Shown here piece after piece: positions 371 through 56,337 of a DNA stretch of 64,000 nucleotides. Position 1 is the first letter of the stretch; each line of letters starts with the position of its first letter. Below the pieces are notes generated by a model that saw nothing but the letters and a program-made list of their open reading frames with translations, ran no database searches and was not told the origin of the DNA. Source of the stretch: Thermophilibacter mediterraneus (GTDB lineage Bacteria; Actinomycetota; Coriobacteriia; Coriobacteriales; Atopobiaceae); the NCBI RefSeq assembly GCF_900119385.1, contig NZ_FPKO01000008.1, forward strand, positions 62,001 through 126,000, written 5' to 3'. The translations under genes and the position numbers were made by a program.

Positions 371-581
371 TCTGCAACCCGCACGCGTCTGGACTACGTG
401 CTGGTTCCGGTCACTATTCAGCCCCCAACCGTCCGCAACCCGCACGCAGTTGGGCCACGTGCTGGTTCCGGTCGTTTCTCAGCCCCCAACCGTCCGCAAC
501 CCGCACGCAGTTGGGCCACGTGCTGGTTCCGGTCGTTTCTCAGCCCCCAACCGTCCGCAACCAGCACGTGTCTGGACTAGT
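371..581. repeat. 61-bp tandem repeat array (locus 1)
   Basis: About three and a half copies of a 61-bp unit, with registers at 421, 482 and 543. The two central copies are identical; the outer copies diverge. Each unit contains AACCCGCACG followed 11 bases later by CGTGCTGGTT, an imperfect inverted repeat able to form a 10-bp hairpin with one mismatch. The array lies between the recombinase stop and the rpsB promoter and has no credible coding potential. A second array with the same period and a related core is at about 32,840-33,085. Confidence 0.9.
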
Positions 582-654
582 ACTTCTCGACAGATGACCC
601 GGGCGCACCCGCGCGCGAGGGGAGGGGGCGCCTCGTGAACCCCTCGTGAACCAC

Positions 655-8357: not shown

Positions 8358-9736
8358 GCACCGCCCTCGGCATCCTCTCCGCCCTGTTCTGGGGCGTCAT
8401 CGTCCTGTCGCTCCTCGTCTTTCTCCACGAGGGGGGCCACTACCTCGCCGCCCGTGCCTTCAACGTGCGCGCGACGGAGTTCTTCCTCGGGCTGCCCTGC
8501 CGCCTCAGGCTCTCCCGCAGGAGCCGCTCGGTCGGCACGGAGTTCGGGGTCACCCCGATCCTGCTCGGCGGCTACACGCGCATCTGCGGCATGGAGGGCG
8601 CGAGCGACGAGCTGCTCTCCGACGCCCTCGCCATCGTCATGCGAGAGGGGCGCGTCAGCGCGGCCGACGTCGGTCGCGAGCTCAACGTGGGCGGGGACCG
8701 CACCTACCGGCTGCTCGCGACCCTGAGCGACTGGGCCTCCATACGACCCTACTACGACCCCGAGCTCGGCGAGCGCCCCGACCAGGGCACCTACCCGGCG
8801 GCCTTCGAGACCCTCGCCCGCGACGGGGCCCATCGCACCGAGTACGACCGCGGCCACGACTTCTCGACGCCCGGCTCGACCGCCGCCGGGCAGCCGCACC
8901 CGCTCGGCATGAGCGCCGGGGAGTTCCTCGAGCTCGAGCGCTCCCACACCTACCTCGGCGTCGGGTTCCTCAGGCGCGTCGCCATGCTCGTCGCCGGCCC
9001 GCTCGTCAACGTCGCGCTCGCCTTCGTGCTCGTCACCGCGGCGTACCTCGTGCAGGAGTACCGCTACTCGCCCAACGTGAGCACCGTCGGGTCGGTGGCG
9101 CAGGGCTCGGTCGCCGCGGCGGCGGGGGTCGAGGAGGGGGACACGATCACGCGCGTCGGGGACACGTCGGTCGAGACCTGGGACGAGCTCGCCGAGGCAC
9201 TCGCGCCCCACCTCTCGTCCGGGACCGACGTCGAGCTCACCTGCGAGCGCGAAGGCGCCGAGCGCACCGTCCTTCTCGACCTTCCCGACGGAGAGGCGAC
9301 CGAGGACGCCGGGCTGCTCCCGGTCGTGGTCTCCTACCACCTCACGCTTCCCCAGGCCGTGCGGGCCACCGTCTCCTACACCGTCCGGGCGGCGACCTAC
9401 GTGTCGCAGCTCATCCAGCCGGCGCACACCATGGAGGTGCTCGACCAGTCGAGCTCGATCGTGGGCATCTCGGCCATGGCCTCGCAGGCCGCCTCCGACG
9501 GCCCCTTCTCGCTCATGGTGGTCGTCGCCGCCGTCTCGATGTCGCTCGGCTTCATGAACCTGCTGCCCATCCCGCCCTTCGACGGCGGAAAGATCTTGAT
9601 CGAGGTCATCCAGCTCGTCATCAGGCGACCGCTCGGGGAGCGCGCCCAGACCGCGCTCAACTACCTCGGGCTCGCGTTCATCCTCTTCGTGTTCGTCGTC
9701 GTCCTGAGAAACGACATCGTCCGATTCGTGTTCTGA
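8354..9736 (+). CDS. rseP: RIP metalloprotease RseP/RasP with an inserted domain
   Basis: A site-2 intramembrane zinc protease (460 aa) that cleaves membrane-embedded regulators or remnant signal peptides. HEGGH (residues 25-29) is in the first membrane segment, the conserved LVAGPLVN stretch follows, a PDZ domain spans roughly 240-310, and the second metal motif is LLPIPPFDGGK near residue 400. The TTG start overlaps the dxr stop. Unusually, about 110 residues (83-195) are inserted between the GGYTRICGME loop and the LRRVAMLVAGP helix. Residues 85-130 of this insert read like a winged-helix domain (ALAIVMREGRVSAADVGREL, then LNVGGDRTYRLLATL), so the protein exceeds the usual size. Confidence 0.93.
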   Translation: MSTALGILSALFWGVIVLSLLVFLHEGGHYLAARAFNVRATEFFLGLPCRLRLSRRSRSVGTEFGVTPILLGGYTRICGMEGASDELLSDALAIVMREGRVSAADVGRELNVGGDRTYRLLATLSDWASIRPYYDPELGERPDQGTYPAAFETLARDGAHRTEYDRGHDFSTPGSTAAGQPHPLGMSAGEFLELERSHTYLGVGFLRRVAMLVAGPLVNVALAFVLVTAAYLVQEYRYSPNVSTVGSVAQGSVAAAAGVEEGDTITRVGDTSVETWDELAEALAPHLSSGTDVELTCEREGAERTVLLDLPDGEATEDAGLLPVVVSYHLTLPQAVRATVSYTVRAATYVSQLIQPAHTMEVLDQSSSIVGISAMASQAASDGPFSLMVVVAAVSMSLGFMNLLPIPPFDGGKILIEVIQLVIRRPLGERAQTALNYLGLAFILFVFVVVLRNDIVRFVF

Positions 9737-9747
9737 GAGGGGGCCAC

Positions 9748-10827
9748 ATGAGCGAGAAGAACGCGCGGGCGCCGCGCGAGCTGACCCGTCCCGTGCGCGT
9801 CGGGGACGTCGTGGTGGGGGGCGGCGCCCCGGTCTCGGTGCAGTCCATGTGCACGACCGACACGGCCGACGCCGCCTCGACGCTCGCGCAGATCCGCTCC
9901 CTCGCCGAGGCGGGCTGCGAGATCGTGCGCGTCGCGGTGCCCGACGCCGCGGCGCTCGACGGGTTCGGGGCCGTCTGCGAGGCCTCGCCCCTGCCCGTCG
10001 TGGCGGACATCCACTTCGACCACCGCCTCGCCATCGAGGCGTGCCGCCGCGGAGCCGCGGCGCTGCGCGTGAACCCCGGCAACATCGGGGACTGGGCGCG
10101 CGTCGACGCGGTCATCGACGAGGCGGGCGCCGCGGGCGTCCCCATCCGGATCGGCGTCAACGCCGGCTCGCTCGACCCCGCCTTCGCCGAGCGGGAGGAC
10201 CTCACCCACGTCGAGAAGCTCGTGGGCTCGGCGACGGCCTTCGTCGAGCACTTCCGCGACCGCGGCTTTTTCGACGTCGTGCTCTCCGCCAAGGCGCACG
10301 GCGTCCCCACCACCGTTGAGGTGAACCGCGCGCTCTCGCGCGAGCTGCCCGACGTGCCGCTGCACGTCGGCGTGACCGAGGCCGGGACGGCCCGGCAGGG
10401 GACCGTCAAGAACGCCGCCGCGATCGGGACCCTGCTCATGGAGGGCATCGGCGACACGATGCGCCTGTCGCTCACGGCCGACCCGGTCGAGGAGGTCAAC
10501 GTCGCGTGGGACCTGCTCTCGGCCGTGGGCCTCAGGCGCCTGCGCCCCGAGCTCGTGAGCTGCCCCACCTGCGGGCGCTGCCAGTGGGACCTCATGGGCG
10601 TCGCCGCCGAGGTCGAGCGCCGGCTCGCCGGCGTGCGGGCCCCCATCACCGTCGCCGTCATGGGCTGCGTGGTGAACGGCCCCGGCGAGGCCAGGGGCGC
10701 CGACATCGGCCTCGCGGGCGGGCGCGGCAGGGCGGTGCTGTTCGCCGCCGGCGAGCGCCTCCGGACCGTCGACGAGGCCGACGCGGTCGACGAGCTCTTC
10801 GCCGAGATCGACCGGCGCTTCTCGTAG
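9748..10827 (+). CDS. ispG: (E)-4-hydroxy-3-methylbut-2-enyl-diphosphate synthase
   Basis: IspG (359 aa) reductively opens MEcPP to HMBPP using a [4Fe-4S] cluster and flavodoxin/ferredoxin electrons. The TIM-barrel half shows the N-terminal VQSMCTTDT and ADIHFDHRLA motifs. The cluster half has SCPTCGRCQ and MGCVVNGPGEARGADIG, which supply the cluster cysteines and the conserved NGPGEA. A GAGAGGGGG stretch precedes the ATG. It follows rseP after 11 bases. Codons 2-5 contain the 11-mer GCGAGAAGAAC discussed under findings. Confidence 0.96.
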   Translation: MSEKNARAPRELTRPVRVGDVVVGGGAPVSVQSMCTTDTADAASTLAQIRSLAEAGCEIVRVAVPDAAALDGFGAVCEASPLPVVADIHFDHRLAIEACRRGAAALRVNPGNIGDWARVDAVIDEAGAAGVPIRIGVNAGSLDPAFAEREDLTHVEKLVGSATAFVEHFRDRGFFDVVLSAKAHGVPTTVEVNRALSRELPDVPLHVGVTEAGTARQGTVKNAAAIGTLLMEGIGDTMRLSLTADPVEEVNVAWDLLSAVGLRRLRPELVSCPTCGRCQWDLMGVAAEVERRLAGVRAPITVAVMGCVVNGPGEARGADIGLAGGRGRAVLFAAGERLRTVDEADAVDELFAEIDRRFS

Positions 10828-10923
10828 CCGCGAGGGGCGGGGGCCTGCGCCTCGCGCGTCCTTCTCGCCGGCTTGGCGTAGAATCGTGTGCGTCGCACCG
10901 ATCCCACCGGAAGGAAGACGCAC

Positions 10924-12639
10924 GTGAAGCGCTACCAGAAGATGTCCCAGCTCTACGCCCCCACGCTCAAGGAGGACCCCGCCGAGGCCGAGCTCGCGAG
11001 CCACCGGCTGCTCCTGCGCGCCGGCATGATCCGCAAGACCGCCGCCGGCCTCTACAGCTACCTGCCGCTCGCATGGAGGTCGATCCGCAAGATCGAGGCC
11101 GTCATCCGCGACGAGATGGAGGCCATCGGGGCCCAGGAGATGATGGTCCCCATCCTCACGCCCGCCGAGCTCTGGCACGAGTCGGGCCGCTGGGACGCCT
11201 ACGGCCCCGAGCTCATGCGCATCGCCGACCGCCACGGGCGCGAGTTCGCACTCGGCCCCACGCACGAGGAGACCTTCACCGACCTCGTCAAGAACGAGCT
11301 GCGCTCCTACAAGCAGCTGCCGGTCACCCTCTACCAGATCCAGGACAAGTTCCGCGACGAGATGCGCCCGCGCTTCGGCCTCATGCGCGGACGCGAGTTC
11401 ATCATGAAGGACGCCTACAGCTTCTCGGCGACGCAGGAGTCGCTCCAGGAGTGCTACGAGCAGGAGAAGGCCGCCTACGCGAGGATCGCCGAGCGCTGCG
11501 GCATCTACGCCCTCCCCGTCGTCGCCGACTCCGGCCAGATCGGCGGCGACACCTCCGTCGAGTTCATGGCGCTCGCCGAGTCCGGCGAGGCCGAGCTCGT
11601 CTACTGCGACTGCGGCTTCGCGGCCGACGTCGAGGCCGCCGCGACGCGCGTCCCCGTGAGCGAGGGGCCGGGCGACGGCGAGCTCGCCAAGGTCCACACG
11701 CCCGGCCTCGGGTCGATCGAGGCCGTCGCGGGGTTCTTCGGCTTCCCCGAGAACGGCACCCGCAAGTCGCTCGCGCTCGTCGCCGAGGACGGCACGCGCG
11801 TCGTGGCCATCGTGCCCGGCGACCACGAGCTCAACGAGATCAAGGCCGAGCACCTCTTCGGCGCCTATCACCTCATGAGCGACGAGGAGCTCGAGGAGGC
11901 GGGCCTCTTCAAGGGCTTCATCGGGCCCGTCGGCCTCCCGCAGGGCGTGCGCCTGGTCTGCGACGAGTCCCTGCGCGAGAGCGTGAGCTGGACCTGCGGC
12001 GCCAACGAGGTCGACTACCACTACACCGGCGCGCGCCCCGGCCGCGACTTCACGGTGGACGAGTGGGCCGACCTCGTGAGCGTGAAGGCCGGCGACCCCT
12101 GCCCGCACTGCGGCGCCGCCCTCAAGAGCGCCCGGGGCATCGAGATCTCCCAGGTCTTCCAGCTCGGCACCAAGTACTCCGAGTCCATGGGGGCGACCTT
12201 CGCCGACGAGGACGGCACGGAGCGCCCGTTCCTCATGGGCTGCTACGGCATCGGCGTCTCGCGCACCCTGGCGGCCGTGGTGGAGCAGCACAGCGACGAG
12301 CACGGCATCAGCTGGCCCGTGTGCGTGGCCCCCTACGAGGTCGAGGTCGTGCCGCTTGCCGTGGGCGACGACGTGGTCGCCCCCGTTGCCGAGCGCCTGG
12401 TAGAGGAGCTCGGCGCCGCGGACCTCGAGGTCCTTCTCGACGACCGCAAGGAGCGCCCCGGCGTCAAGTTCGCCGACGCCGACCTCATCGGCATCCCGTA
12501 CCAGGTCATCCTGGGCAAGCGCGGCGTGGCTGCCGGCATGGCCGAGGTCAAGGTCCGCGAGACGGGCGAGCGCCTTGACGTGCCGATGGACGAGGTCGCG
12601 TCCTGGCTCGCCGAGCGCGTGGTGCCCGCGCGCGCCTAG
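10924..12639 (+). CDS. proS: Prolyl-tRNA synthetase
   Basis: A class II synthetase of the long bacterial type (571 aa) that charges tRNA-Pro and edits Ala-tRNA-Pro. Seen are the N-terminal catalytic segments (LLRAGMIRKTAAGLYSYLPL, GPTHEETFTDLV, RDEMRPRFGLMRGREFIMKD), the editing insertion (about residues 220-400), motif 3 (MGCYGIGVSRTLAA) and the anticodon-binding domain. I chose the GTG at 10924, which has GGAAGGA upstream; an upstream in-frame GTG at 10888 would add twelve atypical residues. TAGAAT at 10879-10884 is a possible -10 box, suggesting a separate promoter after ispG. Confidence 0.96.
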   Translation: MKRYQKMSQLYAPTLKEDPAEAELASHRLLLRAGMIRKTAAGLYSYLPLAWRSIRKIEAVIRDEMEAIGAQEMMVPILTPAELWHESGRWDAYGPELMRIADRHGREFALGPTHEETFTDLVKNELRSYKQLPVTLYQIQDKFRDEMRPRFGLMRGREFIMKDAYSFSATQESLQECYEQEKAAYARIAERCGIYALPVVADSGQIGGDTSVEFMALAESGEAELVYCDCGFAADVEAAATRVPVSEGPGDGELAKVHTPGLGSIEAVAGFFGFPENGTRKSLALVAEDGTRVVAIVPGDHELNEIKAEHLFGAYHLMSDEELEEAGLFKGFIGPVGLPQGVRLVCDESLRESVSWTCGANEVDYHYTGARPGRDFTVDEWADLVSVKAGDPCPHCGAALKSARGIEISQVFQLGTKYSESMGATFADEDGTERPFLMGCYGIGVSRTLAAVVEQHSDEHGISWPVCVAPYEVEVVPLAVGDDVVAPVAERLVEELGAADLEVLLDDRKERPGVKFADADLIGIPYQVILGKRGVAAGMAEVKVRETGERLDVPMDEVASWLAERVVPARA

Positions 12640-12709
12640 TCAGCCCCTGCCCCGGCGGCGTCTGCCCCGGGGCACCTTTCTATCAAGAGGCACCACCGAG
12701 AGGAGCACC

Positions 12710-15250: not shown

Positions 15251-15916
15251 ATGAGGGTCGTTCTGAGGGCGCTGAGGCGCCTCCTGCTCGTCCTTCTTGC
15301 CGTCGGCGCCCTCGCGGCGGGCATCGTGACGCTGAGGGGCTACGGCCTCTACCACGAGGCGCTCGGGCGCGCGCCCATCGAGCAGACCGTCGAGGCGGTG
15401 CGGGCGGGCGAGGGGTACGTGACGCTCGCGGAGCTGCCGCAGACCTACCTCGACGCCGTGGTCGCCATCGAGGACCACCGCTTCTACGACCACCCAGGCT
15501 TCGACGTCATCGCGATCTGCCGGGCCGCGTGGCACGACCTCACGACGCTCTCCCTCGAGCAGGGCGGGTCGACCATCACGCAGCAGCTCGCCAAGAACCT
15601 GTTCTTCTCGCAGGACAAGGACTTCTCGCGCAAGGTCGCCGAGGTGTTCATGGCGGTCGACCTCGAGGGGCGCTACTCGAAGGAGGAGATCCTCGAGCTC
15701 TACGTGAACACGTCCTACTTCGGTGACGGGCTCACGGGCATCGGCCCGGCCGCCCGGGGCTACCTCGGCAAGGAGCCGATCGACATGACCCGCGACGAGT
15801 GCGCCCTCATGGCAGGGCTCCCCAACGCCCCCGGCGTGCTCTCGGCCGACCCCGAGCTCGCGCGCGAGCGCGCGCTGCTCGTGCTGGGGCAGATGGAGAA
15901 GTACGGGCTGGGCTGA
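15251..15916 (+). CDS. mtgA: Monofunctional biosynthetic peptidoglycan transglycosylase
   Basis: A GT51 glycosyltransferase (221 aa) that polymerises lipid II into glycan strands on the outer membrane face without a penicillin-binding domain. One N-terminal membrane anchor (residues 5-30, RRLLLVLLAVGALAAG) is followed by the catalytic VAIEDHRFYDHPGFD (first Glu) and GGSTITQQLAKNLFF motifs, then RKVAEVFMAVDLE. The length suits MtgA. I chose the ATG at 15251 (GGAGGAGAGGGGGCG upstream); an in-frame ATG at 15122 would give an unlikely hydrophilic leader. TACAAT at 15178-15183 is a plausible -10 box. Confidence 0.92.
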   Translation: MRVVLRALRRLLLVLLAVGALAAGIVTLRGYGLYHEALGRAPIEQTVEAVRAGEGYVTLAELPQTYLDAVVAIEDHRFYDHPGFDVIAICRAAWHDLTTLSLEQGGSTITQQLAKNLFFSQDKDFSRKVAEVFMAVDLEGRYSKEEILELYVNTSYFGDGLTGIGPAARGYLGKEPIDMTRDECALMAGLPNAPGVLSADPELARERALLVLGQMEKYGLG

Positions 15917-20414: not shown

Positions 20415-21189
20415 CAGCACGTGAGCTGAGGAACTGCTCAGCGATTCTGTTGCCGATGCGGTAGCCCCTGCGCTGCATGCTCCGGGCGAAGCTCTCCCCG
20501 AGGATGGACACGTGCGAGGCGTACTGGCGCTTCTGGCGGCGCACGCCGGAGCTCCGGCCTCGTCGGACACGGTGCCTGGAGGCCCGCCGCCCTTGCGGGC
20601 GGCCGGGGCGCGCCTTCCGACACCGCGCGCTCGCCAGCGACTCCCGTTGGTCGCCTCTCCTCGCGCGCCTCGTTTCGAAACAGCCCCTCGGGTCGGGGCG
20701 AGCCAGCGCTTGACGGGACGTGCCGCTCCGACAGGCAGCGAGCCCGGCACAAAACCCCTGACGTTGGGTAGCGCGTTCCAGCAACGGCCTCCACCGCCGC
20801 AAAGTGGCCATCGTTGGGTACCGAGTTCCGGGAAAGTCCGACGCGGCGACCCGGGACCCGGGCCCGGCGACCTGCCACGAGGCCCCGATTGACACGTTTG
20901 CCGGACGATTGGGTGCCATCGTCGCCGCGGAGCGCATTCCTCCGGGAGGACGACCACCCAATCGCGGGGGCCTCCTGACAAAACGAGGCATTTGGGAGAG
21001 AGCGACTACCCAATCGCGGGGGCCTCCTGACAAAACGAGGCATTCGGGGGAGAGCGACCACCCAATCGCGGGGGTTTCCTGACAAACGGGGCATTCGGGC
21101 CGCGTGAGCGCGCCTCGCTCGCCAACGTCCCGGCGCGCGAGGGACAGGGAGGCGCCAGCGAGAAGAACCGCGACCCCGCGAGCCGCGCG
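20415..21189. other. Non-coding interval between the toxin and the acyltransferase
   Basis: 775 bases without a gene I can support. A possible decayed minus-strand coding fragment lies near 20,420-20,570, but it resembles nothing I recognise. Two copies of a CGTTGGGTA element are spaced 50 bases apart (20762 and 20812), and a 52-bp tandem array (20,937-21,097) is listed separately. Confidence 0.6.
20937..21097. repeat. 52-bp tandem repeat, three copies
   Basis: Three copies register on CCCAATCGCGGGGG at 20957, 21009 and 21061, exactly 52 bases apart. Between these cores lies CCTCCTGACAAAACGAGGCA with small changes, and the third copy is the most diverged. It is downstream of the acyltransferase (minus strand). 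There is no T-tract or clear long hairpin; function unknown. Confidence 0.85.
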
Positions 21190-23678: not shown

Positions 23679-25673
23679 GTGATAGCACTCGCAGACAAGA
23701 TCACCAAGTCCTTCGGCGGCCGCGTCCTGTACGCGGGCGCCACCCTGCAGCTCAACGCCCACGAGCGCTGGGCCCTCGTCGGGCCCAACGGCGCGGGCAA
23801 GACCACGCTGCTCAAGATCATCATGGGGGAGGAGTCCGCCGACGAGGGGACGGTGAGCTTCGCGCGCGACACCACCGTGGGCTACCTCGAGCAGGAGACC
23901 CACCTCGCGGGCGAGAAGAGCGCGCTCGCCGAGGTCGTCGACTCGGCGCACGAGGTCAAGGACGTCGAGCGCCTGGTGGCCGAGCTCGAGCGGCAGATCT
24001 CCGAGGCCGCGCCCGGACCCGAGCTCGACTCCCTGCTCGAGCGCTACGGCCACGCGCAGGACCGCTTCGAGCGCCTGGGCGGCTACGAGCTCGAGAGTCG
24101 CGCCCGGGCCATCCTCGCCGGCCTCGGCTTTCCCGTCGAGGACTTCGACAAGCCCGCGCGCGAGTTCTCCGGCGGCTGGCAGATGAGGATCGCCCTCTCC
24201 AAGCTGCTGCTCCGCCACCCCGACCTGCTCCTGCTCGACGAGCCCACCAACCACCTCGACCTCGAGAGCGTCAAGTGGCTCGAGCAGTTCCTCGCGGGCT
24301 ACGACGGCGCCGTCCTTCTCGTCAGCCACGACCGCGCCTTCATGGACGCCTGCGTCTCCCACGTGGCCGCCGTGGAGAACCGCCGCATCACCACCTACAC
24401 CGGCAACTACTCGAGCTACCTGCGCCAGCGCGAGGACAACCTCGAGCAGATGCGGGCCAAGCGCGCCGCGCAGGAGCGCGAGATCGCCCACATGCAGGTC
24501 TTCGTCGACAAGTTCCGCTACAAGCCCACCAAGGCCGCCCAGGCCCAGGAGCGCATGAAGAAGATCGAGCAGATCAAGAAGGAGCTCGTGATCTTGCCCG
24601 AGGGCACCAAGAAGGTGCACTTCTCGTTCCCCGAGCCGCCCCGGACCGGCGACGAGGTCGTGAGGCTCGAGGGCGTCTCGAAGTCCTTCGGCGAGAACCA
24701 CGTCTACTCGGGGGTCGACCTGAAGCTCTACCGCGGCGACCACGTCGTGCTCGTGGGCCCCAACGGCGCGGGCAAGTCCACCCTCATGAAGCTCATGAAC
24801 GGCCGGCTCGCCCCCGACGAGGGCGAGGTCGCGCTCGGCAAGGACGTGACGATGGCCTACTACGCCCAGCACCAGCTCGAGCAGCTGAACGAGGCCAACA
24901 CGGTGCTCGGCGAGATGGACTCGGTCGCGCCCGGCTGGACCACCTCCGAGGAGCGCCGCCTGCTCGGCGCCTTCCTCTTCCACGGCGACGACGTAGAGAA
25001 GCGCGTGAGCGTGCTCTCGGGCGGGGAGCGGGCGCGCCTGGCGCTCGCCAAGATGCTCGTGGCGCCGGACCCGCTGCTTTTGCTCGACGAGCCGACCAAC
25101 CACCTCGACATCGACTCGGTCGACGTGCTCGAGCACGCGCTCGTGGGGTTCGCGGGCACGATCGTGCTCATCTCCCACGACGAGCACCTCGTGCGCGCCG
25201 TGGCCAACAAGGTCGTGGACGTGCGCGACCACCAGGTCACGGTCTACGACGGCGACTACGACTACTACCTGTTCAAGCGCGCCGAGCTCGAGGCTCGCGC
25301 GGCGGGCGAGGCGGCCCCGGAGGCGCCCCGCGCCCAGGCGCGGGCGCAGTCCGCGCCGAGCGAGGCCGCGCCCGCGGGCCGCAACGTCAAGACCCGCGAG
25401 CAGCGCCGCGCCGAGGCGGAGGAGCGCAACCGCCGCAACCGCGCGCTCAAGGCTGAGCGCGACCGCCTCCGGCAGGTCGAGGCCGCCCTCGAGCCCGCGC
25501 AGGCGCGCCTCGCCGAGCTCGAGACCCTCATGGCCGACCAGGAGCTCTACAACGACGCGAGGCGCTTCGACGAGTGCATGACCGAGTACACGGCGCTCTC
25601 GAAGAAGGTGCCCGCGCTCGAGCAGGAGTGGCTCGAGCTCACCGAGAAGATCGAGGGGGCCGCGGATGCGTGA
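23679..25673 (+). CDS. ABC-F family ATPase
   Basis: A soluble protein with two ABC ATPase domains and no membrane segments (664 aa). Walker A motifs are [10 protein letters not shown] (near residue 35) and [10 protein letters not shown] (near 365); signatures are [13 protein letters not shown] and [13 protein letters not shown]; both Walker B motifs read [12 protein letters not shown]. The linker between domains ([17 protein letters not shown]) is the ABC-F P-site tRNA interaction motif region, and the C-terminus is a coiled coil. ABC-F proteins act at the ribosomal E site in translation control or antibiotic protection; the subfamily (YdiF/Uup-like versus resistance) is not decided by sequence alone. 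GTG start with CCAGGAAG upstream. Confidence 0.9.
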
Positions 25674-25962
25674 GCCGAGCCTCGCGCCCCGCGCGCTCTT
25701 CGCGCTCGCCGTGGCCCTGCGCGTGGCCGCGTGGGCGATCGTCCTTCTCGTCGTGGCCGACGCCGTGCTGCCCGCCGGCGCGCGCACCTGGCTGCTCGGC
25801 GTCAACGGCGCGCTCTCCCGCCTCGTCCCGGGGGCGCTCTCCGGGCTCTTCGTGCTCCAGACGCCCCTCGGCGGCGCCTTCCGCGGCGACTTCGCCGTGG
25901 TTGCTATAGTGTTGCTCGTGCTCGACTGGATCTGCTGTCGCGCGTCTGCCTCGCTGCGCTAG
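25666..25962 (+). CDS. Small membrane protein of unknown function
   Basis: A 98-residue protein with hydrophobic segments at about 10-35, 50-65 and 75-93 ([20 protein letters not shown] and [16 protein letters not shown]). Its ATG overlaps the end of the ABC-F gene by eight bases, and it ends 21 bases before the site-2 protease gene, so it belongs to the same transcript. I do not recognise the family. The two-helix layout with a conserved-looking small loop loosely resembles YggT-type proteins. Confidence 0.6.
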
Positions 25963-27525: not shown

Positions 27526-28247
27526 GGGACCTCGACCGCATGGACTCGGGCTCGCTCAAGGGCCTGCTCGAGGCGCTCCTGCTCGTGTCGTCCGACTCCG
27601 TGCCGGCGACCGACCTCGCGCGGGCGGCCGGCGCGCAGCCGGGCGAGGTCGCGTCCGCGCTCGCCGAGCTCTCGGCGGAGTACGCCGACGCCAACCGGGG
27701 CTTCCAGCTGCGCGAGGTCGCGGGGGGCTGGCGGCTCTTCACCCACCCGGCCTACCACGACCAGGTCGCCGACTACGTCCTGTCGTGGGACACCCGCCGG
27801 CTCTCGCAGGCGGCGCTCGAGACGCTCGCGGTCATCGCCTACCACCAGCCCGTCACCCGCGAGGGGGTGCGCGCCATCCGCGGCGTCAACTCCGACGGCG
27901 TGATATCGTCGCTGCGCGAGAAGGGCCTCGTGCGCGAGGTCGGGCGCGAGGCGGACCGCGGCCAGGCCCAGCTCTGGGGCACCACGCGGCTCTTCCTCGA
28001 GCACTTCGGCCTCAGGAGCCTGCGCGAGCTCCCGCCGCTCGAGGACTTCGCCCCCGACGAGGAGTCGCGCCGCTTCATCCGCGAGCGCCTCTCGGGGCGC
28101 TCCATCTCCTCGACCCCCGAGGAGGCGGCCCGCGACATGGACGACGAGCGCGAGCTGCTCGACGACTACGGCGAGAAGGACGAGGGGGCCGACGCCGCGG
28201 ACGGGGGCGCGGACAGCGCCGCGGGCGAGGGGGAGCGCGATGAGTGA
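27522..28247 (+). CDS. scpB: Segregation and condensation protein B
   Basis: ScpB (241 aa) dimerises through tandem winged helices and stabilises ScpA on the SMC complex. LKGLLEALLLVSSDSVPATD opens the family, and RRLSQAALETLAVIAYHQPV with VTREGVRAIRGVNSDG is the hallmark. The last 40 residues are a poorly conserved, very acidic tail (residues 200-241). GTG start overlaps scpA; the stop overlaps the next start. Confidence 0.95.
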   Translation: MRDLDRMDSGSLKGLLEALLLVSSDSVPATDLARAAGAQPGEVASALAELSAEYADANRGFQLREVAGGWRLFTHPAYHDQVADYVLSWDTRRLSQAALETLAVIAYHQPVTREGVRAIRGVNSDGVISSLREKGLVREVGREADRGQAQLWGTTRLFLEHFGLRSLRELPPLEDFAPDEESRRFIRERLSGRSISSTPEEAARDMDDERELLDDYGEKDEGADAADGGADSAAGEGERDE

Positions 28248-30537: not shown

Positions 30538-31380
30538 GTGGCCGAGATCAGGGTCGCGAGGGAGGCGGGCGCCTGCTACGGCGTCGAGCGCGCGCTCGCC
30601 ATGGTCGAGTCGGCGGCAGAGGAGCGCTCCTGCGCGGTCCACACGCTCGGGCCGCTCATCCACAACCCGCGGGTGGTCGCCGACCTCGAGGCGCGCGGCG
30701 TCACCGTGGTGGGCTCCCCCGAGGAGGCCGCGGGCGACGCGCTGCTGCTGCGCACCCACGGGACCGCGCCGGACGAGGAGCGCCGGGCCCGCGAGCTCTG
30801 CGCGCGCGTGCTCGACGCGACGTGCCCGTTCGTCAAGAAGGTCCACCTCGCCGCGGAGCGCCTGAGCGCCGAGGGCTACCAGGTCGTCGTGGTGGGGGAG
30901 GCCGGGCACCCCGAGGTCGAGGCAACGCTGCCGCACGCGCCGGGCGCCGTGGTGGTGGGATCTCCCGAGGAGGCCCTCGCGCTGCCGCACGCGCGCAGGG
31001 TCGGTGTGGTGGTGCAGACCACCGCGCGCCGGGCGCTGCTCGCCGAGGTCGTGGGCGCGCTGCTCGGGACGGCGGAGGAGGTGCGCGTGGTCAACACGAT
31101 CTGCGAGGCCACGGCGGGCCACCAGGCCGCGGCCGACGAGCTCGCGCGCGAGGCCGACGTGATGGTGGTCATCGGGGGGCGCATCTCGGCCAACACGACG
31201 CGGCTCGCGGAGATCTCCGCGGCGCGCTGCCCGCGCACGCACCACGTCGAGGGCGCGGACGAGCTGCGCGCGGAGTGGTTTGAGGGCGCCGGCCTCATCG
31301 GCATCACCGCCGGGGCGAGCACCCCGTCGAGCCAGATCGAGGCGGTCCGCGAGCGGATCGCGCAGATCGTCGGGGCGTAG
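30538..31380 (+). CDS. ispH: 4-hydroxy-3-methylbut-2-enyl diphosphate reductase
   Basis: IspH (280 aa) makes IPP and DMAPP from HMBPP, the last MEP step. Three conserved cysteines for the [4Fe-4S] cluster are seen in GACYGVERAL, DATCPFVKK and NTICEAT. The GGRISANTTRLAEIS and GITAGASTPSSQIE motifs bind the diphosphate. I chose the GTG at 30538, preceded by GGGGTGGAG. Some actinobacterial homologues are longer at the N-terminus, but the cysteine at position 12 shows nothing essential is missing. Confidence 0.95.
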   Translation: MAEIRVAREAGACYGVERALAMVESAAEERSCAVHTLGPLIHNPRVVADLEARGVTVVGSPEEAAGDALLLRTHGTAPDEERRARELCARVLDATCPFVKKVHLAAERLSAEGYQVVVVGEAGHPEVEATLPHAPGAVVVGSPEEALALPHARRVGVVVQTTARRALLAEVVGALLGTAEEVRVVNTICEATAGHQAAADELAREADVMVVIGGRISANTTRLAEISAARCPRTHHVEGADELRAEWFEGAGLIGITAGASTPSSQIEAVRERIAQIVGA

Positions 31381-31439
31381 GCGAGAAGAACCCCGGGTCG
31401 GCGCCGCTGCGCCGCGGGGACGGAGTCGGGAGGGGAGCG

Positions 31440-34818: not shown

Positions 34819-34836
34819 GCCCGTCCGGGGCGACCC

Positions 34837-34874
34837 GGGCGAGAAGGACCTGCCGCCGCGGGCCCTTCTCGCCC
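34837..34874. terminator. Long hairpin after the SLH/lysozyme-like gene
   Basis: GGGCGAGAAGG (34837-34847) pairs with CCTTCTCGCCC, and two further pairs follow after one mismatch. The arms contain the CGAGAAGG 8-mer that recurs in the window. There is no T-tract, so termination would need RNA structure alone or Rho. An alternative is that it is a signal sequence placed as an inverted pair. Confidence 0.6.
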
Positions 34875-34992: not shown

Positions 34993-36323
<1,331 letters not shown>

Positions 36324-36324
<1 letters not shown>

Positions 36325-38751: not shown

Positions 38752-39921
38752 GTGACGTACGCCTACCTCGACTACGCCGCCTCCGCCCCCCTGCGCCCCG
38801 AGGCGCTCGAGGCCGAGCGCTCCTACGACGCGAGCCCGGTGGCCGGCGCCAACCCCAACTCGCTCCACAGCATGGGGCGCGCGGCGGCGCGCGAGCTCGA
38901 CCGCGCCCGGCGCGAGCTCGCCGCCTGCCTCGGCGGCGCCTTCCGCCCCTCCGACGTGACGTTCACCTCCGGGGGCACCGAGTCCAACAACCTCGCGGTC
39001 ATAGGGCTCGCCGAGGGCGCGCGCGCCCGCGACGCCCGCCGCAGGCGCGTGGTCCTCTCGGCCATCGAGCACGACTCCGTCCTCGACCTCGTGGGGCCGC
39101 TGCGCGACCGCGGCTTCGAGGTCGAGCTCGCCCGCCCCGACCGCTCGGGCGTGGTGGGCCCGCGGGCCCTCGAGGGGCTCGTGGACGCCTCGTGCGCGCT
39201 CGTCTCGGTCATGGCCGCAAACAACGAGACCGGCGTCCTGCAGCCCACCGGCGAGCTCGCGCGCGCCGCGCACGCCGCCGGCGCGCTCTTCCACACCGAC
39301 GCGGTCCAGGCGCTCGGGCACGTTCCGCTCGACGTCGCCGACGCGGACGCCGTGAGCGTGGCCGCCCACAAGCTCGGCGGGCCGGTCGGCGTGGGCGCGC
39401 TCGCCGTGCGCGGCCGCGCCCCGCTCAGGCCCATCAGCTTCGGGGGCGGGCAGGAGCAGGGGAGGCGAGCCGGCACGCAGGACGTCCGCGGGGCCCTCGC
39501 CTTCGCCGCCGCCGCGCGCGCCTGCGCGGCCACGCTCGACCGGACGGCCGCCGAGGTCGCCGGGAGGGCCCGTCGCCTCGCGGGGGCGCTCTGCGCGCCC
39601 GGGACCGGCATCGTCGCCACGACCGACGCCGAGCGCCGACTGCCCGGCATCGTGAACGTCATGGCGCCCGGGCTCGACTCCGAGACCATGATCTTGGCCC
39701 TCGACCAGGAGGGGTTCGAGGTCTCCGCGGGCTCCGCCTGCTCCTCGGGCTCCCTCGACGCCAGCCACGTCCTTCTCGCCATGGGCATCCCCCGCGAGGA
39801 GGCGCTCGGCTCGCTGCGCATCTCCTTCGACGAGCGCGTGGGTGACGACGTCCTCGCGCGGCTCGCCCAGGCACTCGTCAGAATCGTCGCCGAGCGCGGT
39901 CGGTCCCGCGCGCGGCGCTAG
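38752..39921 (+). CDS. Cysteine desulfurase (NifS/IscS family)
   Basis: A PLP enzyme (389 aa) that takes sulfur from cysteine for Fe-S clusters or tRNA thiolation. YLDYAASAPLR opens the fold; FTSGGTESNNLA, ANNETGVLQP, the PLP lysine in VAAHKLGGPVGVGAL and the persulfide cysteine in SAGSACSSGS are present. The long mobile-loop form suggests the IscS/NifS (class I) type. The start is uncertain: GTG at 38752 gives the usual M-x-Y-x-YLD beginning, while GTG at 38740 is also in frame; neither has a good ribosome-binding site, so translation may be coupled to rpe. Confidence 0.9.
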   Translation: MTYAYLDYAASAPLRPEALEAERSYDASPVAGANPNSLHSMGRAAARELDRARRELAACLGGAFRPSDVTFTSGGTESNNLAVIGLAEGARARDARRRRVVLSAIEHDSVLDLVGPLRDRGFEVELARPDRSGVVGPRALEGLVDASCALVSVMAANNETGVLQPTGELARAAHAAGALFHTDAVQALGHVPLDVADADAVSVAAHKLGGPVGVGALAVRGRAPLRPISFGGGQEQGRRAGTQDVRGALAFAAAARACAATLDRTAAEVAGRARRLAGALCAPGTGIVATTDAERRLPGIVNVMAPGLDSETMILALDQEGFEVSAGSACSSGSLDASHVLLAMGIPREEALGSLRISFDERVGDDVLARLAQALVRIVAERGRSRARR

Positions 39922-40668: not shown

Positions 40669-41897
40669 GCGAGAAGAACCTCGGCCCGGAGGGCGCAGAC
40701 GGCCGCGCGCCGCGCGTCCTTCTCGCCGTGTGCGGGGGCATAGCCGCGTACAAGGCCTGCGAGGTGCTGCGGGGCCTTCAGAGGGCCGGCTGCGACGTGC
40801 GCGTGACCATGACCGAGGACGCGCTGCGGTTCGTGGGCGCCGCGACCTTCGAGGCGCTCTCCGGGGCGCCGGTGGCCACGTCGCTCTACGGCCACCCCGG
40901 CTCGGCGATCCCGCACATCGAGCTCGCCGAGTGGGCCGACGTCGCCCTGGTGGTGCCCGCGACGGCCAACGTGATGGCGAAGATGGCCTGCGGCATCGCC
41001 GACGACTGCCTCACGACGACGCTGCTCGCCTGCCACGGGTGCTGCCCCGTCCTGGTGGCGCCCGGCATGAACGTGCACATGTGGCAGAGCCCCGCGACGC
41101 AGGCCAACGCCGAGACGCTGCGCTCCCGCGGCGTGCACCTCGTGGGGCCCGACTGCGGCCGCCTCGCCTGCGGCGACGTGGGCGAGGGGAAGCTCGCGCC
41201 GGTGGACCAGATCGTCGCTGCGGCGCGAGCGGCGCTCGGGGCGGGCGACCTCGCCGGGCTGCGCCTCGTGGTCACGGCGGGCCCCACCCACGAGGCCATC
41301 GACCCCGTGCGCTTCATCGCCAACCGCTCGACCGGCAAGATGGGCTACGCGCTCGCCGAGGCCGCCGTCGCGCGAGGAGCCGAGGTCACGCTCGTCTCCG
41401 GGCCGACGGCGCTCGGCTGCCCGGCCGGCGCGCGGCGCGTGGACGTGGTGTCCGCGGCCCAGATGCGCGACGCGACGCTCGCCGCCTTCGAGGACGCCGA
41501 CGCGGCGATCTGCTGCGCCGCCGTGGCCGACTACACGCCGGCGCGCCCCGCGGACCACAAGCTCAAGAAGTCGCGCGAGCACCTGGACGCCATCGAGCTC
41601 GTCGAGACGGCCGACATCCTGGCCGAGCTCTGCGCCGCCAAGGGAGAGCGCGTCGTGGCGGGCTTCGCCGCCGAGACCGACGACCTTCTCGCGCACGCCA
41701 CGGAGAAGCTGCGCCGCAAGGGGGCCGACCTCATCGTGGCCAACGACGTGAGCCGCCCCGAGTCCACCTTCGGCGCGGACACCAACCGCGTGGCGCTCGT
41801 CACGGCAGCCGGCGTGCGCCAGCTCGAGACCATGCCGCTGCGCGCCGTGGCCGACGCGGTCCTCGACGCCGTGCGCGACCTGGGCGCGGCGCGGTAG
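40665..41897 (+). CDS. coaBC: Bifunctional phosphopantothenoylcysteine decarboxylase / synthase
   Basis: CoaBC (410 aa) performs two coenzyme A steps. The CoaC flavoprotein half (1-190) has VCGGIAAYKACEVLR, the active-site His in IPHIELAEWAD, and APGMNVHMW. The CoaB half has TAGPTHEAIDPVRFIANRST, KMGYALAEAA and NDVSRPESTFGADTN. The GTG start overlaps the zinc-ribbon gene's stop. The N-terminal codons contain GCGAGAAGAAC, repeated as its complement at 40716-40726. Confidence 0.95.
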   Translation: MSEKNLGPEGADGRAPRVLLAVCGGIAAYKACEVLRGLQRAGCDVRVTMTEDALRFVGAATFEALSGAPVATSLYGHPGSAIPHIELAEWADVALVVPATANVMAKMACGIADDCLTTTLLACHGCCPVLVAPGMNVHMWQSPATQANAETLRSRGVHLVGPDCGRLACGDVGEGKLAPVDQIVAAARAALGAGDLAGLRLVVTAGPTHEAIDPVRFIANRSTGKMGYALAEAAVARGAEVTLVSGPTALGCPAGARRVDVVSAAQMRDATLAAFEDADAAICCAAVADYTPARPADHKLKKSREHLDAIELVETADILAELCAAKGERVVAGFAAETDDLLAHATEKLRRKGADLIVANDVSRPESTFGADTNRVALVTAAGVRQLETMPLRAVADAVLDAVRDLGAAR

Positions 41898-42943: not shown

Positions 42944-43049
42944 CGCAAAGGGACGGCGAGAAGGACGGCGCGCCCGCGGCGCGCCCGGCCCGGGCCGCGG
43001 GCGTTTGTGACAAAATACCCTGTCACCATTGTCAGGAAGGGAGCCGCCC

Positions 43050-44882
43050 ATGGGCATCCTCATCGGACTGGAGCACATCGGCCACGAGTGGCCCGGCAAG
43101 CGCGTGCTCGAGGACCAGACCATCGGCATCAACGAGGGCGAGCGCATCGGCATCGTGGGCCGCAACGGCGACGGCAAGTCGACGCTCCTCGAGATCGTGG
43201 CCCACGCGCTCGAGCCCGACTCGGGCACGGTCACCTGGCGCCGCGGCATCCAGGTGGGCTACCTCGGCCAGGCGGACCGGCTCGACGACGCCGACCCCGT
43301 CCGCCGTGCCATCTTCGGCGACGTCCCCGAGTTCACCTGGGCCTCCGACGCCCGGATCCGGGCGATCCTCGACGAGCTCGTGGGCGAGCTCGACCTCGAC
43401 GGTCCCGTGGGCGAGCTCTCGGGCGGGCAGCGCCGCCGGGTCGACCTCTGCCGCGTCCTGTGCAACACCTGGGACGTCATCTGCATGGACGAGCCCACCA
43501 ACCACCTGGACCTCGCGGCCATCGAGTGGCTGGCAGAGCACCTGCGCCGCCGCTGGCCGGCGGGGGAGGGCGCGCTTCTCGTGGTCACGCACGACCGGTG
43601 GTTCCTCGACGAGGTCTGCGAGCACATGTGGGAGGTCCACGACCGCCGCATCGAGCCCTTCGAGGGCGGCTACTCCGCCTACATCCAGCAGCGCGTGGAG
43701 CGCGAGCGCCAGGCGGCCGTCATGGAGGAGCGCCGACAGAACACGCTGCGCAAGGAGCTCAACTGGCTCGCGCACGGCGCCAAGGCGCGCACGAGCAAGC
43801 CGAAGTTCCGCATCGAGGCCGCCCGCGCCCTCATCGCCAACGACCCGCCGCTCAGAAACCCGCTCGAGCTCAAGCGCCTGGCCGTCTCCCGCCTGGGCAA
43901 GCAGGTCATCGAGATGTCTGACGTGAGCTTCGCCTACCCCGGCGGGCCCAGCGTGATCGAGGACGTCTCGTGGCTCATCGGCCCCGGTGACCGCTACGGC
44001 ATCCTCGGCGCCAACGGCGCGGGCAAGTCGACGCTGCTGGCGCTCATGACCGGCGCGCTCAAGCCGACGTCCGGCACGGTGAAGATCGGCGCCTCGGTGC
44101 GCTTCGGCTTCATGAGCCAGCACCTCGACGCGCTGGCCGAGAGGGACGGCTGGCGCGTGCTCGAGGTGCTCGGGCGCTACAAGCGCAGCTACCTCGTGGG
44201 TGGCAAGATGCAGAGCCCCACGCAGCTCATCGAGCGCCTGGGCTTCGAGCAGCGCGAGCTCCAGAACTTCATCCGCGACCTCTCCGGCGGCCAGCGCCGC
44301 CGCCTGGCGCTGCTGTGCGTGATCCTGGAGGAGCCCAACGTGCTCGTGCTCGACGAGCCCGGCAACGACCTCGACACCGACATGCTCGCCGTGATGGAGG
44401 ACCTGCTCGACAGCTGGCCCGGCACGCTCATCGTGGTCTCCCACGACCGCTACCTCATGGAGCGCGTGACCGACGACCAGTTCGCGCTCATCGGTGGCCA
44501 CGTGCGACACGTCCCCGGCGGCGTCGACGAGTACCTGCGCCTGCTCGCCTCGGGCGAGAAGGACGCGGGGCAGCCCGCCGCGCCGGCCCCCGCGCCCGGG
44601 TCGTCCCCGCGCGACGCCGCCCCGGGCGCGCCCCAGGCGCAGCCCGGGCTCACCAACCAGGAGCGCCGCGAGCTCAAGAAGCGCTTCGACGCCGTGGCGC
44701 GCCGCCTCGAGAAGACCGCGGCCGACCCAGAGCGCCTGCGCGCGGAGATGGCCGCCGTCGACGCGAGCGACTACGCCGCCCTCATGGCCGCGCAGGCCGC
44801 GCTCGACGCGTGCCTCGAGGAGCGCGCCTCGCTCGAGGACGAGTGGCTCGAGCTCGCCGAGCGCCTCGGCATCGACGCCTGA
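43050..44882 (+). CDS. ABC-F family ATPase, Uup-like
   Basis: A soluble twin-ABC protein (610 aa). Walker A motifs are GRNGDGKSTLL and [11 protein letters not shown]; signatures LSGGQRRRVDL and LSGGQRRRLAL; the first Walker B is MDEPTNHLD but the second is LDEPGNDLDTD, the variant typical of Uup. The C-terminus is a coiled coil after a Pro/Ala linker (about 520-545), as in Uup's DNA-binding tail. Uup affects ribosome function and transposon excision in E. coli. GGAAGGGAG precedes the ATG at 43050. An inverted repeat TGACA-N8-TGTCA (43008-43025) sits just upstream and could be an operator. Confidence 0.88.
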   Translation: MGILIGLEHIGHEWPGKRVLEDQTIGINEGERIGIVGRNGDGKSTLLEIVAHALEPDSGTVTWRRGIQVGYLGQADRLDDADPVRRAIFGDVPEFTWASDARIRAILDELVGELDLDGPVGELSGGQRRRVDLCRVLCNTWDVICMDEPTNHLDLAAIEWLAEHLRRRWPAGEGALLVVTHDRWFLDEVCEHMWEVHDRRIEPFEGGYSAYIQQRVERERQAAVMEERRQNTLRKELNWLAHGAKARTSKPKFRIEAARALIANDPPLRNPLELKRLAVSRLGKQVIEMSDVSFAYPGGPSVIEDVSWLIGPGDRYGILGANGAGKSTLLALMTGALKPTSGTVKIGASVRFGFMSQHLDALAERDGWRVLEVLGRYKRSYLVGGKMQSPTQLIERLGFEQRELQNFIRDLSGGQRRRLALLCVILEEPNVLVLDEPGNDLDTDMLAVMEDLLDSWPGTLIVVSHDRYLMERVTDDQFALIGGHVRHVPGGVDEYLRLLASGEKDAGQPAAPAPAPGSSPRDAAPGAPQAQPGLTNQERRELKKRFDAVARRLEKTAADPERLRAEMAAVDASDYAALMAAQAALDACLEERASLEDEWLELAERLGIDA

Positions 44883-54005: not shown

Positions 54006-56337
54006 TCTCGTCGTTGTAGCGGTAGAGGTTGGCGACGAGCCCCGCGGCGTCCTCGCCGAGCGGCGCCACGAGCGTAAGCTCAAAGCCGAAGGAGCCGTCA
54101 TGCTCGAGCGACACCTGCACGGAGCCGGACTCGCCGGTGACGAGGTTCACGACGTCCGCGGGGATGGAGTCACCGCCGAGGGCAACGCCCAGGTCGACGT
54201 CGCCGTGCTCCGCATCCGCGGGCACGTCCCCGCCGTAGATCTCCCAGAACAGCCCGTCGCCCATGTCGAGCGCGAGCGTCACGTCGCGTCCGGCGAGCTC
54301 GTCCAGCACCTCGCCGGGCAGCACCGTCTTGCCGTCCATGTCCACCTTGACCGTGGAGCCGGGACGGGCGCCCGCGATGTCGTTTGCCACGTCGCCCCAG
54401 TCGGGCCCGGTCGGGCGCGGCGGGACGTACGGAGTGCGCACCGAGAAGGACAGGGCGACGGCGCAGGTCGCCGACTCGCCCTCCGCAGCGGCCCCGGCGA
54501 TTGTGAGCTGCTCGGAGTGCGTCCCCGCGGCAAGGCCTGGCTTGGGCTGCACGGAGAAGGTGACGGACTTGCCCGGAGCGAGCTCGGTGGCGGAAAGCGC
54601 GCCGACCAAGAAGCTGGTGGAGGCAGGCTGCGCCAGCTTAACGCTCTGGTTGCCCGTGTTGGTGACGGTCACGGTCTGCGCGGTGGGCTGCGCGTAGCCG
54701 GTGTAGACGCCGCCAAAGTCGAGCGAAGCCGGGGACGCGGAGATGCCATAGGTCTTTGCGACCACGGTCACCGTGCAGGTGGCGGTCTTGTTGCCATCGG
54801 CAGTGGCAGTAATGTTGGTGATGCCCGCGCTCACAGCGGTGACGAGGCCGCTTGCGTCCACGGTGGCAACGCTTGTGTTGCTACTTTCCCACGTCACATC
54901 TTTGTTGGTGGCGTTGCTCGGCTCCACCGTAGCGGTGAGGGTGCCTGTTTCGTTCTCCACCAAGTTCAATGTGCTTGGACTAAGCGACACACTATTAACT
55001 GGGACATAAGCTGCCGTTTCAATCGTCAGCGTAAACTGCGTGCTGTCGTTGCCGTAGTCGTTTTCAGCCTTCACAGTGAAAGTGCTCGTCTCCGCCGTGG
55101 TGGGCGTGCCGGCAATCTCGCCGGTGCTCCCATTCAAAGTTAGACCAGCAGGCAGGGAACCGCTGGTGACGCTCCATGTAATCGGCGTGGTGCCGGTTGC
55201 CGTCAGCGTTTGGCTGTACGATGTGCCCACGGGGCCACCTGGCAGGCTCTCGGTTGTGATGGTGGGAGCATGATTGACGGCGCCGTTTCCACCGATGTTG
55301 TCGGGCAAGGTGCCGGAGTTGTTGATGGTGCCGTTGTTGGTCAGGGTGCCGTCATCGGTGGTCACGGTGCCCTCATTAGTCAGCGTTGCGTCGTTGCCGA
55401 TTGTCAGGCTCGCCCCGCTGGGAATATCCAGGCTCTCGCCCTCACCGATGGTCAAATCCTCCTGCAAGGTCACATCGTCGTACACGGTGCCTGCATTACT
55501 GTTGGAAAGATCAAGACCAAAGACGATACCAACACTGCCATCAACAGGGGAAACTTCCTTGAGATCTAGTAGCCATCCGGCACCGATTCCACCGCCTCTT
55601 GCGTCCACGATGGCACTGTTGCTGATGGTTAAGGCCGTAGTTTCAGGAACGGTACCACTGCCGATAGAATCATATAGAATCCCTGGAGACCCGCTGGCAG
55701 TCAGGCTGCCGCCGTCCACAGTCAGAGAGGCGGTCGAACTTTCGTGGGATTGCACATTGACACCACGACTGGTCCCCGTTGCTTCAACATCGGCGTTATG
55801 GATGGTCAGGGTGGCATTGCCGCTGTTGCTTTGAACCCAGATTCCAGTCTGACTGGCGCTGGCATCCAGACTGCCGCCGCTTTCGCTTGTGATGGTCAGG
55901 GTGGCTTCGCCAGTAGAACTGGCCAACACATAGATCCCCTTGCCGACCTCTGCGATTGTATTGGTGCCCTCCAATGTGATGGTCAATTCTGCGTTGCCGT
56001 CGCCGTACTGATTGAGCACACCAATGGCTGCGCCTGCGAGTAAAGTATTGGTATCAATGGATACGCTCATTCTAATGGTGGCGTTGTGCAGGGTCAGGGT
56101 ATTGCGACTTGCGTCATAATAGATAAAGTTGTCCGCCGGTGTGCCTTCGCCTGTGAATGCGGTGACGTTTCCATCGCTGTCGGTCGTCCAGTAGCCGCCC
56201 CTTGTCACATTTTCGTTGCCTACATAGATCACCTGTCCGTTCGGCGCAACCGCCAGCGCCGTGGCGGGCAGCATCGTCAGGAACACCATCATCGCCGCCA
56301 GTAGCGCGCCGACCTTCCACCACGTTCTTCTCGCCAT
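53353..56337 (-). CDS. Large SLH-anchored surface protein B
   Basis: A 994-residue exported protein with the same domain order as protein A: signal peptide (1-31, FLTMLPATALA), repetitive beta-helix-like region (40-350), Ig-like putative domain (GGPVGTSYSQTLTATGTTPI), BIG2 (SVSLSPSTLNLVENETGTLT), choice-of-anchor domain (DFGGVYTGYAQPTAQTVTV) and three SLH repeats. The last 217 residues equal those of A; elsewhere they are diverged paralogues. Composition also varies: the middle third is host-like, the first 480 codons AT-richer. I chose ATG 56337 (GGAAGGGACGG upstream). Codons 2-5 carry GCGAGAAGAAC written with rare AGA codons. Confidence 0.87.
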   Translation of the reverse strand: MARRTWWKVGALLAAMMVFLTMLPATALAVAPNGQVIYVGNENVTRGGYWTTDSDGNVTAFTGEGTPADNFIYYDASRNTLTLHNATIRMSVSIDTNTLLAGAAIGVLNQYGDGNAELTITLEGTNTIAEVGKGIYVLASSTGEATLTITSESGGSLDASASQTGIWVQSNSGNATLTIHNADVEATGTSRGVNVQSHESSTASLTVDGGSLTASGSPGILYDSIGSGTVPETTALTISNSAIVDARGGGIGAGWLLDLKEVSPVDGSVGIVFGLDLSNSNAGTVYDDVTLQEDLTIGEGESLDIPSGASLTIGNDATLTNEGTVTTDDGTLTNNGTINNSGTLPDNIGGNGAVNHAPTITTESLPGGPVGTSYSQTLTATGTTPITWSVTSGSLPAGLTLNGSTGEIAGTPTTAETSTFTVKAENDYGNDSTQFTLTIETAAYVPVNSVSLSPSTLNLVENETGTLTATVEPSNATNKDVTWESSNTSVATVDASGLVTAVSAGITNITATADGNKTATCTVTVVAKTYGISASPASLDFGGVYTGYAQPTAQTVTVTNTGNQSVKLAQPASTSFLVGALSATELAPGKSVTFSVQPKPGLAAGTHSEQLTIAGAAAEGESATCAVALSFSVRTPYVPPRPTGPDWGDVANDIAGARPGSTVKVDMDGKTVLPGEVLDELAGRDVTLALDMGDGLFWEIYGGDVPADAEHGDVDLGVALGGDSIPADVVNLVTGESGSVQVSLEHDGSFGFELTLVAPLGEDAAGLVANLYRYNDETGSLGYEATAQVDGEGVARLPFDHASSWLVALDSRGHALPFSDANDGEWYSEAVRWAWLGGVMTGYGDGSGLFGTSSALTRAEAAVALWRLAGEPEGASGLPADCDPSGFYAEAASWALGAGVFSGYSGDAFGPADPITREQLATVLWRAAGSPEAGGDLSSFSDAADVSGFADVAMRWAVSAGVLRGQGDGDALDPQGACTRAQLATMLHRLAAAE

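Follow-up and report, generated by a model that had tools for sequence, protein, structure and literature searches.

Occurrence of the motif in the window

The window, i.e. the whole 64-kb stretch of DNA analysed here (C6:62001-126000 of the Thermophilibacter mediterraneus genome, which comprises 2,374,959 bases in 9 contigs), contains the gene of the Der GTPase (34993-36324), whose product shows 95% identity to Der of Olsenella sp. An285, in keeping with a host from Olsenella/Thermophilibacter (Atopobiaceae). The gap before der carries an inverted pair of a short motif, for which folding predicts a hairpin of -41 kcal/mol (z -3.8). The preliminary description of this DNA had reported the motif, GCGAGAAGRAC, as frequent, and every place it quoted carries the motif, to within one or two bases. 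The copies are located as follows (window coordinates, strand, and context):

34836..34874, no strand: inverted pair GGCGAGAAGGAC ... GCCCTTCTCGCC (34839-34849 + 34864-34871), hairpin without a T tract, 18 bp past the end (stop 34818) of gene 33154-34818 and upstream of der
10857..10868, -: GGCGAGAAGGAC, intergenic (10827 / 10924)
31380..31391, +: GGCGAGAAGAAC, directly past the stop of gene 30538-31380
42955..42966, +: GGCGAGAAGGAC, gap between genes 42050-42943 and 43050-44882
21158..21168, +: GCGAGAAGAAC, gap between called genes
56323..56334, -: GGCGAGAAGAAC, gap between called genes; the adjacent gene call, made with our own gene caller, may be truncated
40669..40679, +: motif in the first codons (MSEKN) of gene 40665-41897
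40716..40726, -: antisense copy in the same gene, 47 bp past the 40669 copy; kept in 16 of 24 aligned loci
39769..39779, -: antisense intragenic copy, kept in 13 of 24 aligned loci
44554..44564, +: intragenic copy, kept in 11 of 17 aligned loci
28171..28181, +: intragenic copy, absent from all 17 aligned relatives (turnover)
9752..9762, +: motif in the first codons (MSEKN) of gene 9748-10827
15601..15611, -: antisense intragenic copy
9269..9278, -: core CGAGAAGGAC, written GTC CTT CTC G in gene 8354-9736
12430..12439, -: core CGAGAAGGAC, antisense in a gene
24312..24321, -: core CGAGAAGGAC, antisense in a gene
25741..25750, -: core CGAGAAGGAC, antisense in a gene
580..589, -: variant CGAGAAGTAC, a T variant that is common in Lancefieldella

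The sequence CCTTCTCG is found at 9271, 12432, 24314, 25743, 39771, and 40718. The inverted pair described earlier at 40669-40726 does exist, but it sits in the start of gene 40665-41897 and not in an intergenic gap.

Over-representation and consensus

Within the window GCGAGAAGRAC occurs 13 times, compared with 0.16 expected from dinucleotide shuffles, and CGAGAAGG occurs 23 times (3.5 expected). Its abundance exceeds what was initially described: the whole genome contains 204 forward and 231 reverse copies (435) of the 11-mer vs 6 and 9 (15) of the reversed pattern. Sampling was carried out in 20-kb stretches, and k-mers were ranked on 357 kb of sampled genome against an order-4 Markov model. 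In this ranking CGAGAAGGAC and GCGAGAAGGAC reached the top z-score among all 10-/11-mers, and GGCGAGAAGGAC that among all 12-mers, with 34 copies vs 1.0 expected.

In the noncoding DNA of three genomes (the host and two relatives) we counted 44 copies of GCGAGAAGGAC and 85 of GCGAGAAGAAC, with about 0.7 expected for each. The consensus derived from these regions is G-G-C-G-A-G-A-A-G-(A/G)-A-C-(G/C), i.e. a non-palindromic word whose information stops at about 12-13 bp. Single mismatches are nearly absent from the core positions 3-8, the end positions tolerate change, and words with two mismatches occur at expectation (250 vs 244).

The sampled stretches of the host and its relatives also contain another dispersed word that is less common, GTGCAAAAGGGAC / CTTTTGCAC. 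It was counted 9 times in the 357 kb, vs about 0.01 expected, and by its appearance is an interspersed hairpin repeat, of which the genome G096 contains the variant GTGCAAAGGGGAC.

Distribution between genes, gaps and codons

Our own gene calls covered 736 kb of the host genome and 280 and 260 kb of the two relatives. In these three genomes the density of the 11-mer is 0.15-0.23 per kb in genes, 0.44-0.68 outside them and 0.62-1.31 in short intergenic gaps, where the reversed control has zero copies; the intergenic density is 3-8 times the intragenic one. When the three genomes are pooled, convergent gaps have about 1.6 copies per kb, compared with 1.2 for tandem and 0.3 for divergent gaps, which points to the 3' ends of genes rather than to promoters.

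Shuffling of synonymous codons in the host genes reduced the number of sense copies from 41 to 24, and that of antisense copies from 49 to 2.75. Codon usage thus provides a background for the sense reading GAG AAG GAC (Glu-Lys-Asp), but hardly any for GTC CTT CTC, the antisense reading. The earlier remark that the scarce leucine codon CTT tends to be followed by CTC was well founded, as there are 170 such leucine pairs vs 65 expected; the number of CTT codons preceding CTG, in contrast, is close to the expected one. Taken together with the noncoding densities, which are the highest, these counts confirm that the motif is enriched outside genes and independently of codon usage.

Orientation, spacing and inverted pairs

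The motif shows no strand polarity: the sample contains 113 forward and 122 reverse copies, without significant heterogeneity over 35 stretches (p = 0.36). Its orientation is also uncorrelated with gene direction, with 38 copies in tandem gaps pointing with transcription and 32 against it. Along the chromosome the spread over 5-kb bins is that of a Poisson process, and 80-94% of 5-kb pieces contain at least one copy.

Among pairs of noncoding copies within 60 bp of each other, 10 are convergent, 9 point in the same direction and 3 are divergent, compared with a total expectation of about 11; an excess is evident for convergent pairs 20-29 bp apart (8 vs about 1 expected). Inverted pairs, to which the preliminary description gave prominence as structures at terminators, are therefore present, as in the hairpin at 34836-34874, but these modest counts led us to reject them as the main feature: they are a minor one, accounting for few sites, and the hairpin itself has no T tract.

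Maintenance and turnover of sites

When 27 loci around der were aligned, 10-mers belonging to the motif proved more conserved than neighbouring 10-mers at every level of identity (e.g. 0.51 vs 0.28 at 85-90%), with part of the excess stemming from the R position. A stricter test was based on a single rare synonymous codon: at aligned leucines (70-90% identity) the codon CTT stays CTT in 59-67% of cases within GTYCTTCTCG and in 16-17% elsewhere. These figures are contrasts and not probabilities, because the sequence pairs are non-independent. The positions of the sites turn over between species and their density is constant; for example, the gap before der contains the inverted pair in the host genome only, while the relatives have their copies elsewhere or none. 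Such turnover fits a dispersed signal, not a regulatory site of a single gene.

Dialects among relatives

The 12-letter word GGCGAGAAGRAC is present in hundreds of chromosomal copies in the host and its relatives, in dialects specific to the genus. Nine of the ten genomes of the same genus that we counted contain 435-853 copies of the 11-mer, and the 8-mer core GCGAGAAG is enriched about 3- to 6-fold over the reversed control in all 31 genus genomes sampled. The same core is enriched about 3- to 7-fold in other genera of Atopobiaceae (g3, g4, g8, g12, g94, and others), and it is not enriched over the reversed control in g2, g5, g6, and most of g90. In g2 we found TGCCGAGAA instead (733 and 739 copies vs 23 and 24), in a word extended to TGCCGAGAAACC, with CCGAGAAACCC occurring 28 times vs 0.1. 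Lancefieldella (g3) has TGGCGAGAAG followed by T or A, g8 has GGGCGAGAAG, and g12 has both TGGCGAGAAG and TGCCGAGAA. A member of Coriobacteriales from outside Atopobiaceae (G090; L039-L040, L222-L224) also has GGGCGAGAAG, in 21 copies vs 1.1. The part common to the dialects is CGAGAA. No such word was found in the samples of Collinsella, Enorma, and Eggerthellaceae.

In one single-contig genome, G124, which belongs to this genus as well, the 11-mer is found only 77 times. A search of 140 kb revealed no other dialect with clarity, and both ComEC and Flp appear intact; the system may have been lost there, or the word may have changed.

Other repeats were observed in two of these genomes. In G090 the unit AGCGGGGATGAT is repeated 48 times within 40 kb, by appearance a CRISPR array. 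In G060 (genus g4; L170-L172, L193-L200) the word GCCAAGAAGG, possibly a further dialect, occurs 17 times vs 1.8, alongside a dispersed CCATTGGGGACGGGT element, which is possibly a repeat family.

Competence genes and the Flp pilin

A search for competence genes revealed a ComEA gene, whose product has SLBB and helix-hairpin-helix domains, next to a ComEC gene (L135), a DprA gene 2.4 kb before the window, and tad genes. The sole pilus ATPase is TadA-like, and its neighbours are CpaB-, TadZ-, TadB-, and TadC-like, together with likely TadE/F/G genes. ComEC and a pilus/secretion ATPase are present in all 40 genomes examined, including genera without a visible motif, so that the machinery and the motif do not co-vary.

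The Flp pilins, which the Pfam family Flp_Fap (PF04964) does not recognise, were identified by their processing motif and place, and then by protein search. The gene is whole in 29 of the 31 genus genomes and split in two. In the host, codons 1-37 are at C1:216864-216974 and the remainder at C1:171530-171640, with a 44-kb prophage in between (insert of about 45 kb; IMGVR_UViG_2865153741_000001, with a large serine recombinase; tad operon, G000:C1:171530-216974; sampled stretches L006, about 11527-12815, and L136, about 10141-11974). In G214 an insert of about 8.5 kb interrupts the gene (G214:C1:311002-319747).

Prophages that insert into comYC (encoding the major competence pilin), comK, and comFA have been viewed as anti-transformation weapons (PMC4774983). 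By analogy with the prophages in comYC, the split Flp pilin lends support to the view that the Tad pilus takes part in transformation here. The elements that split it are possibly competence-silencing, and if the Tad pilus does serve transformation, the host strain itself may be unable to transform at present. The host prophage contains 3 motif sites in 27 kb vs 7 expected (p = 0.07), a weak depletion that is suggestive at most. Our search of viral contigs for phages returned only the host's own prophage and distant phages, and a search with the portal family PF04860 revealed no prophages in the genus.

A candidate DNA uptake sequence

The presence of the motif on both strands, its intergenic enrichment, its independence from codon usage, its maintenance at synonymous sites, the turnover of its positions, its dialects and the accompanying competence genes support the interpretation that (G)GCGAGAAGRAC is a DNA uptake sequence of the genus, which we consider likely. 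The lack of co-variation between machinery and motif, the low copy number in G124 and the weak depletion in the prophage speak against it. An uptake signal had been proposed at the outset together with Chi-like and chromosome-organising ones; on sequence grounds the proposal of an uptake signal is now well supported, while replication-oriented readings (KOPS/SRS, leading-strand Chi) found no support, because the motif lacks strand polarity.

The distribution of the motif, its maintenance and turnover, its dialects and the presence of the genes are observations, and from them we infer an uptake bias, a receptor and the use of the Tad pilus for uptake in these bacteria. According to the proposed mechanism, a surface receptor, probably a minor Tad/Flp pilus subunit or a ComEA-associated protein, would bind the motif on free DNA and thereby favour the uptake of DNA from the same species. 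The imported DNA would pass through ComEC, be protected by DprA and then recombine. Over the generations such biased uptake would let motif copies build up evenly over the two strands, with the highest density where a copy is cheapest, i.e. in intergenic regions, at the 3' ends of genes and at synonymous positions. A change of the receptor would cause the motif to drift, giving rise to dialects.

Uptake sequences as a class are known; the sequence, the phylum and the pilus type are new. In Neisseriaceae, Frye and colleagues described eight DUS dialects with a conserved CTG core, identified by a similar approach, of which some genomes have two (PMC3630211). The motif resembles these sequences (e.g. 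AT-DUS) in being a short (10-12 nt) non-palindromic word that recurs hundreds to thousands of times over the two strands, enriched in intergenic regions, occasionally found in inverted pairs, and occurring throughout the family in dialects that share a core, sometimes two per genome. In contrast to DUS, it has an unrelated sequence (GGCGAGAAGRAC vs GCCGTCTGAA) and belongs to a different phylum, its copy number is lower (435-853 for the 11-mer vs about 1900 in meningococci), and the pilus would be Tad/Flp instead of type IVa with ComP. Descent from Neisseriaceae DUS is not supported, since GGCGAGAAGRAC has no CTG/CAG core and its carriers are Actinomycetota. With the USS of Pasteurellaceae, for which a minor type IV pilin has been proposed as the receptor (PMC12616744), the motif shares the logic, the genome-wide distribution and the dialects, but it differs in its unrelated sequence and in having no long AT-rich extension.

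Among actinobacteria, Micrococcus luteus, which has no com-type pili, is transformed via Tad/Flp pili and ComEC, in a report whose main text does not mention an uptake sequence (PMC4322843). The host belongs to the same phylum and likewise possesses ComEA, ComEC, DprA and tad genes and no com-type pilus. Our search of the open-access literature returned no publication that deals with uptake sequences of Olsenella, Coriobacteria or Actinobacteria, and no transformation or uptake data for Coriobacteriia.

Alternative explanations

A protein-binding or recombination signal could likewise be maintained and could drift into dialects. The recombination variant, in which the motif is a Chi-like hotspot recognised by a nuclease of the AddAB/RecBCD/AdnAB type and stimulates repair recombination, would fit the maintenance of synonymous sites seen in the CTT codons, and Chi sites are also short, non-palindromic, strongly over-represented and variable between lineages. 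Known Chi sites, however, have a leading-strand bias, and neither the lack of strand polarity nor the preference for 3' ends and intergenic regions, the hairpin pairs and the length of 11-12 bp resemble them; we regard this explanation as rather unlikely.

The protein-binding variant, in which the motif is bound by a nucleoid-associated or chromosome-organising protein required evenly along the chromosome, would account for the conservation and agrees with the Poisson spread, the use of both orientations and the intergenic enrichment. Yet 435-853 copies of a non-palindromic 12-bp word are more than in most such systems, and the strong turnover of positions, the genus dialects and the absence from sister families make this reading quite unlikely.

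A replication-oriented sequence of the KOPS/SRS type, read by FtsK/SpoIIIE, is suggested by the high copy number of an over-represented, octamer-like word and by its core, in which GAGAAGGA resembles the Bacillus SRS, GAGAAGGG, a likeness that we treat as a lead only. Strong polarity is the hallmark of both KOPS and SRS, and the equal use of both strands, in the 35 stretches as in the whole genome (204 vs 231), contradicts co-orientation with replication and renders this origin very improbable.

There is equally little to recommend a transcription terminator, an anti-terminator or another RNA signal: some pairs do form strong hairpins after genes and the 3' ends are preferred, but single sites predominate, many copies are intragenic, both orientations relative to transcription are equally used and the hairpin at 34836-34874 has no T tract, and the terminator reading was rejected. 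Finally, an artefactual origin in codon or dinucleotide usage or in frequent peptides (e.g. E-K-D), for which only the favoured sense frame GAG AAG GAC speaks, is contradicted by the antisense and noncoding counts, by the absence of the reversed control and by a 30-fold excess over the order-4 Markov expectation, and is hardly conceivable.

Significance of the proposed uptake sequence

Returning to the proposed DNA uptake sequence, the distribution of the motif, which is like that of the self-recognition tags in Neisseria and Haemophilus, suggests that Actinobacteria, too, mark their own DNA for selective uptake. We lean towards the view that it represents a third uptake-sequence system of independent origin, and the first one from Gram-positive-type bacteria (Actinomycetota), which would extend over Atopobiaceae and probably a neighbouring genus of Coriobacteriaceae, would be read by a Tad/Flp pilus, with dialects of the genera restricting gene exchange, and would be broken by mobile elements via the Flp pilin. 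To our knowledge, there is no established transformation system for Olsenella, Thermophilibacter or Lancefieldella/Atopobium. If the interpretation is true, natural transformation is predicted in these common gut and oral bacteria, and the motif would be available for placing on constructs. Such an unrelated third case, from a different phylum and with a different type of pilus, would also mean that bacteria tag their own DNA for transformation more widely, and would offer a new place to study the co-evolution of receptor and motif.
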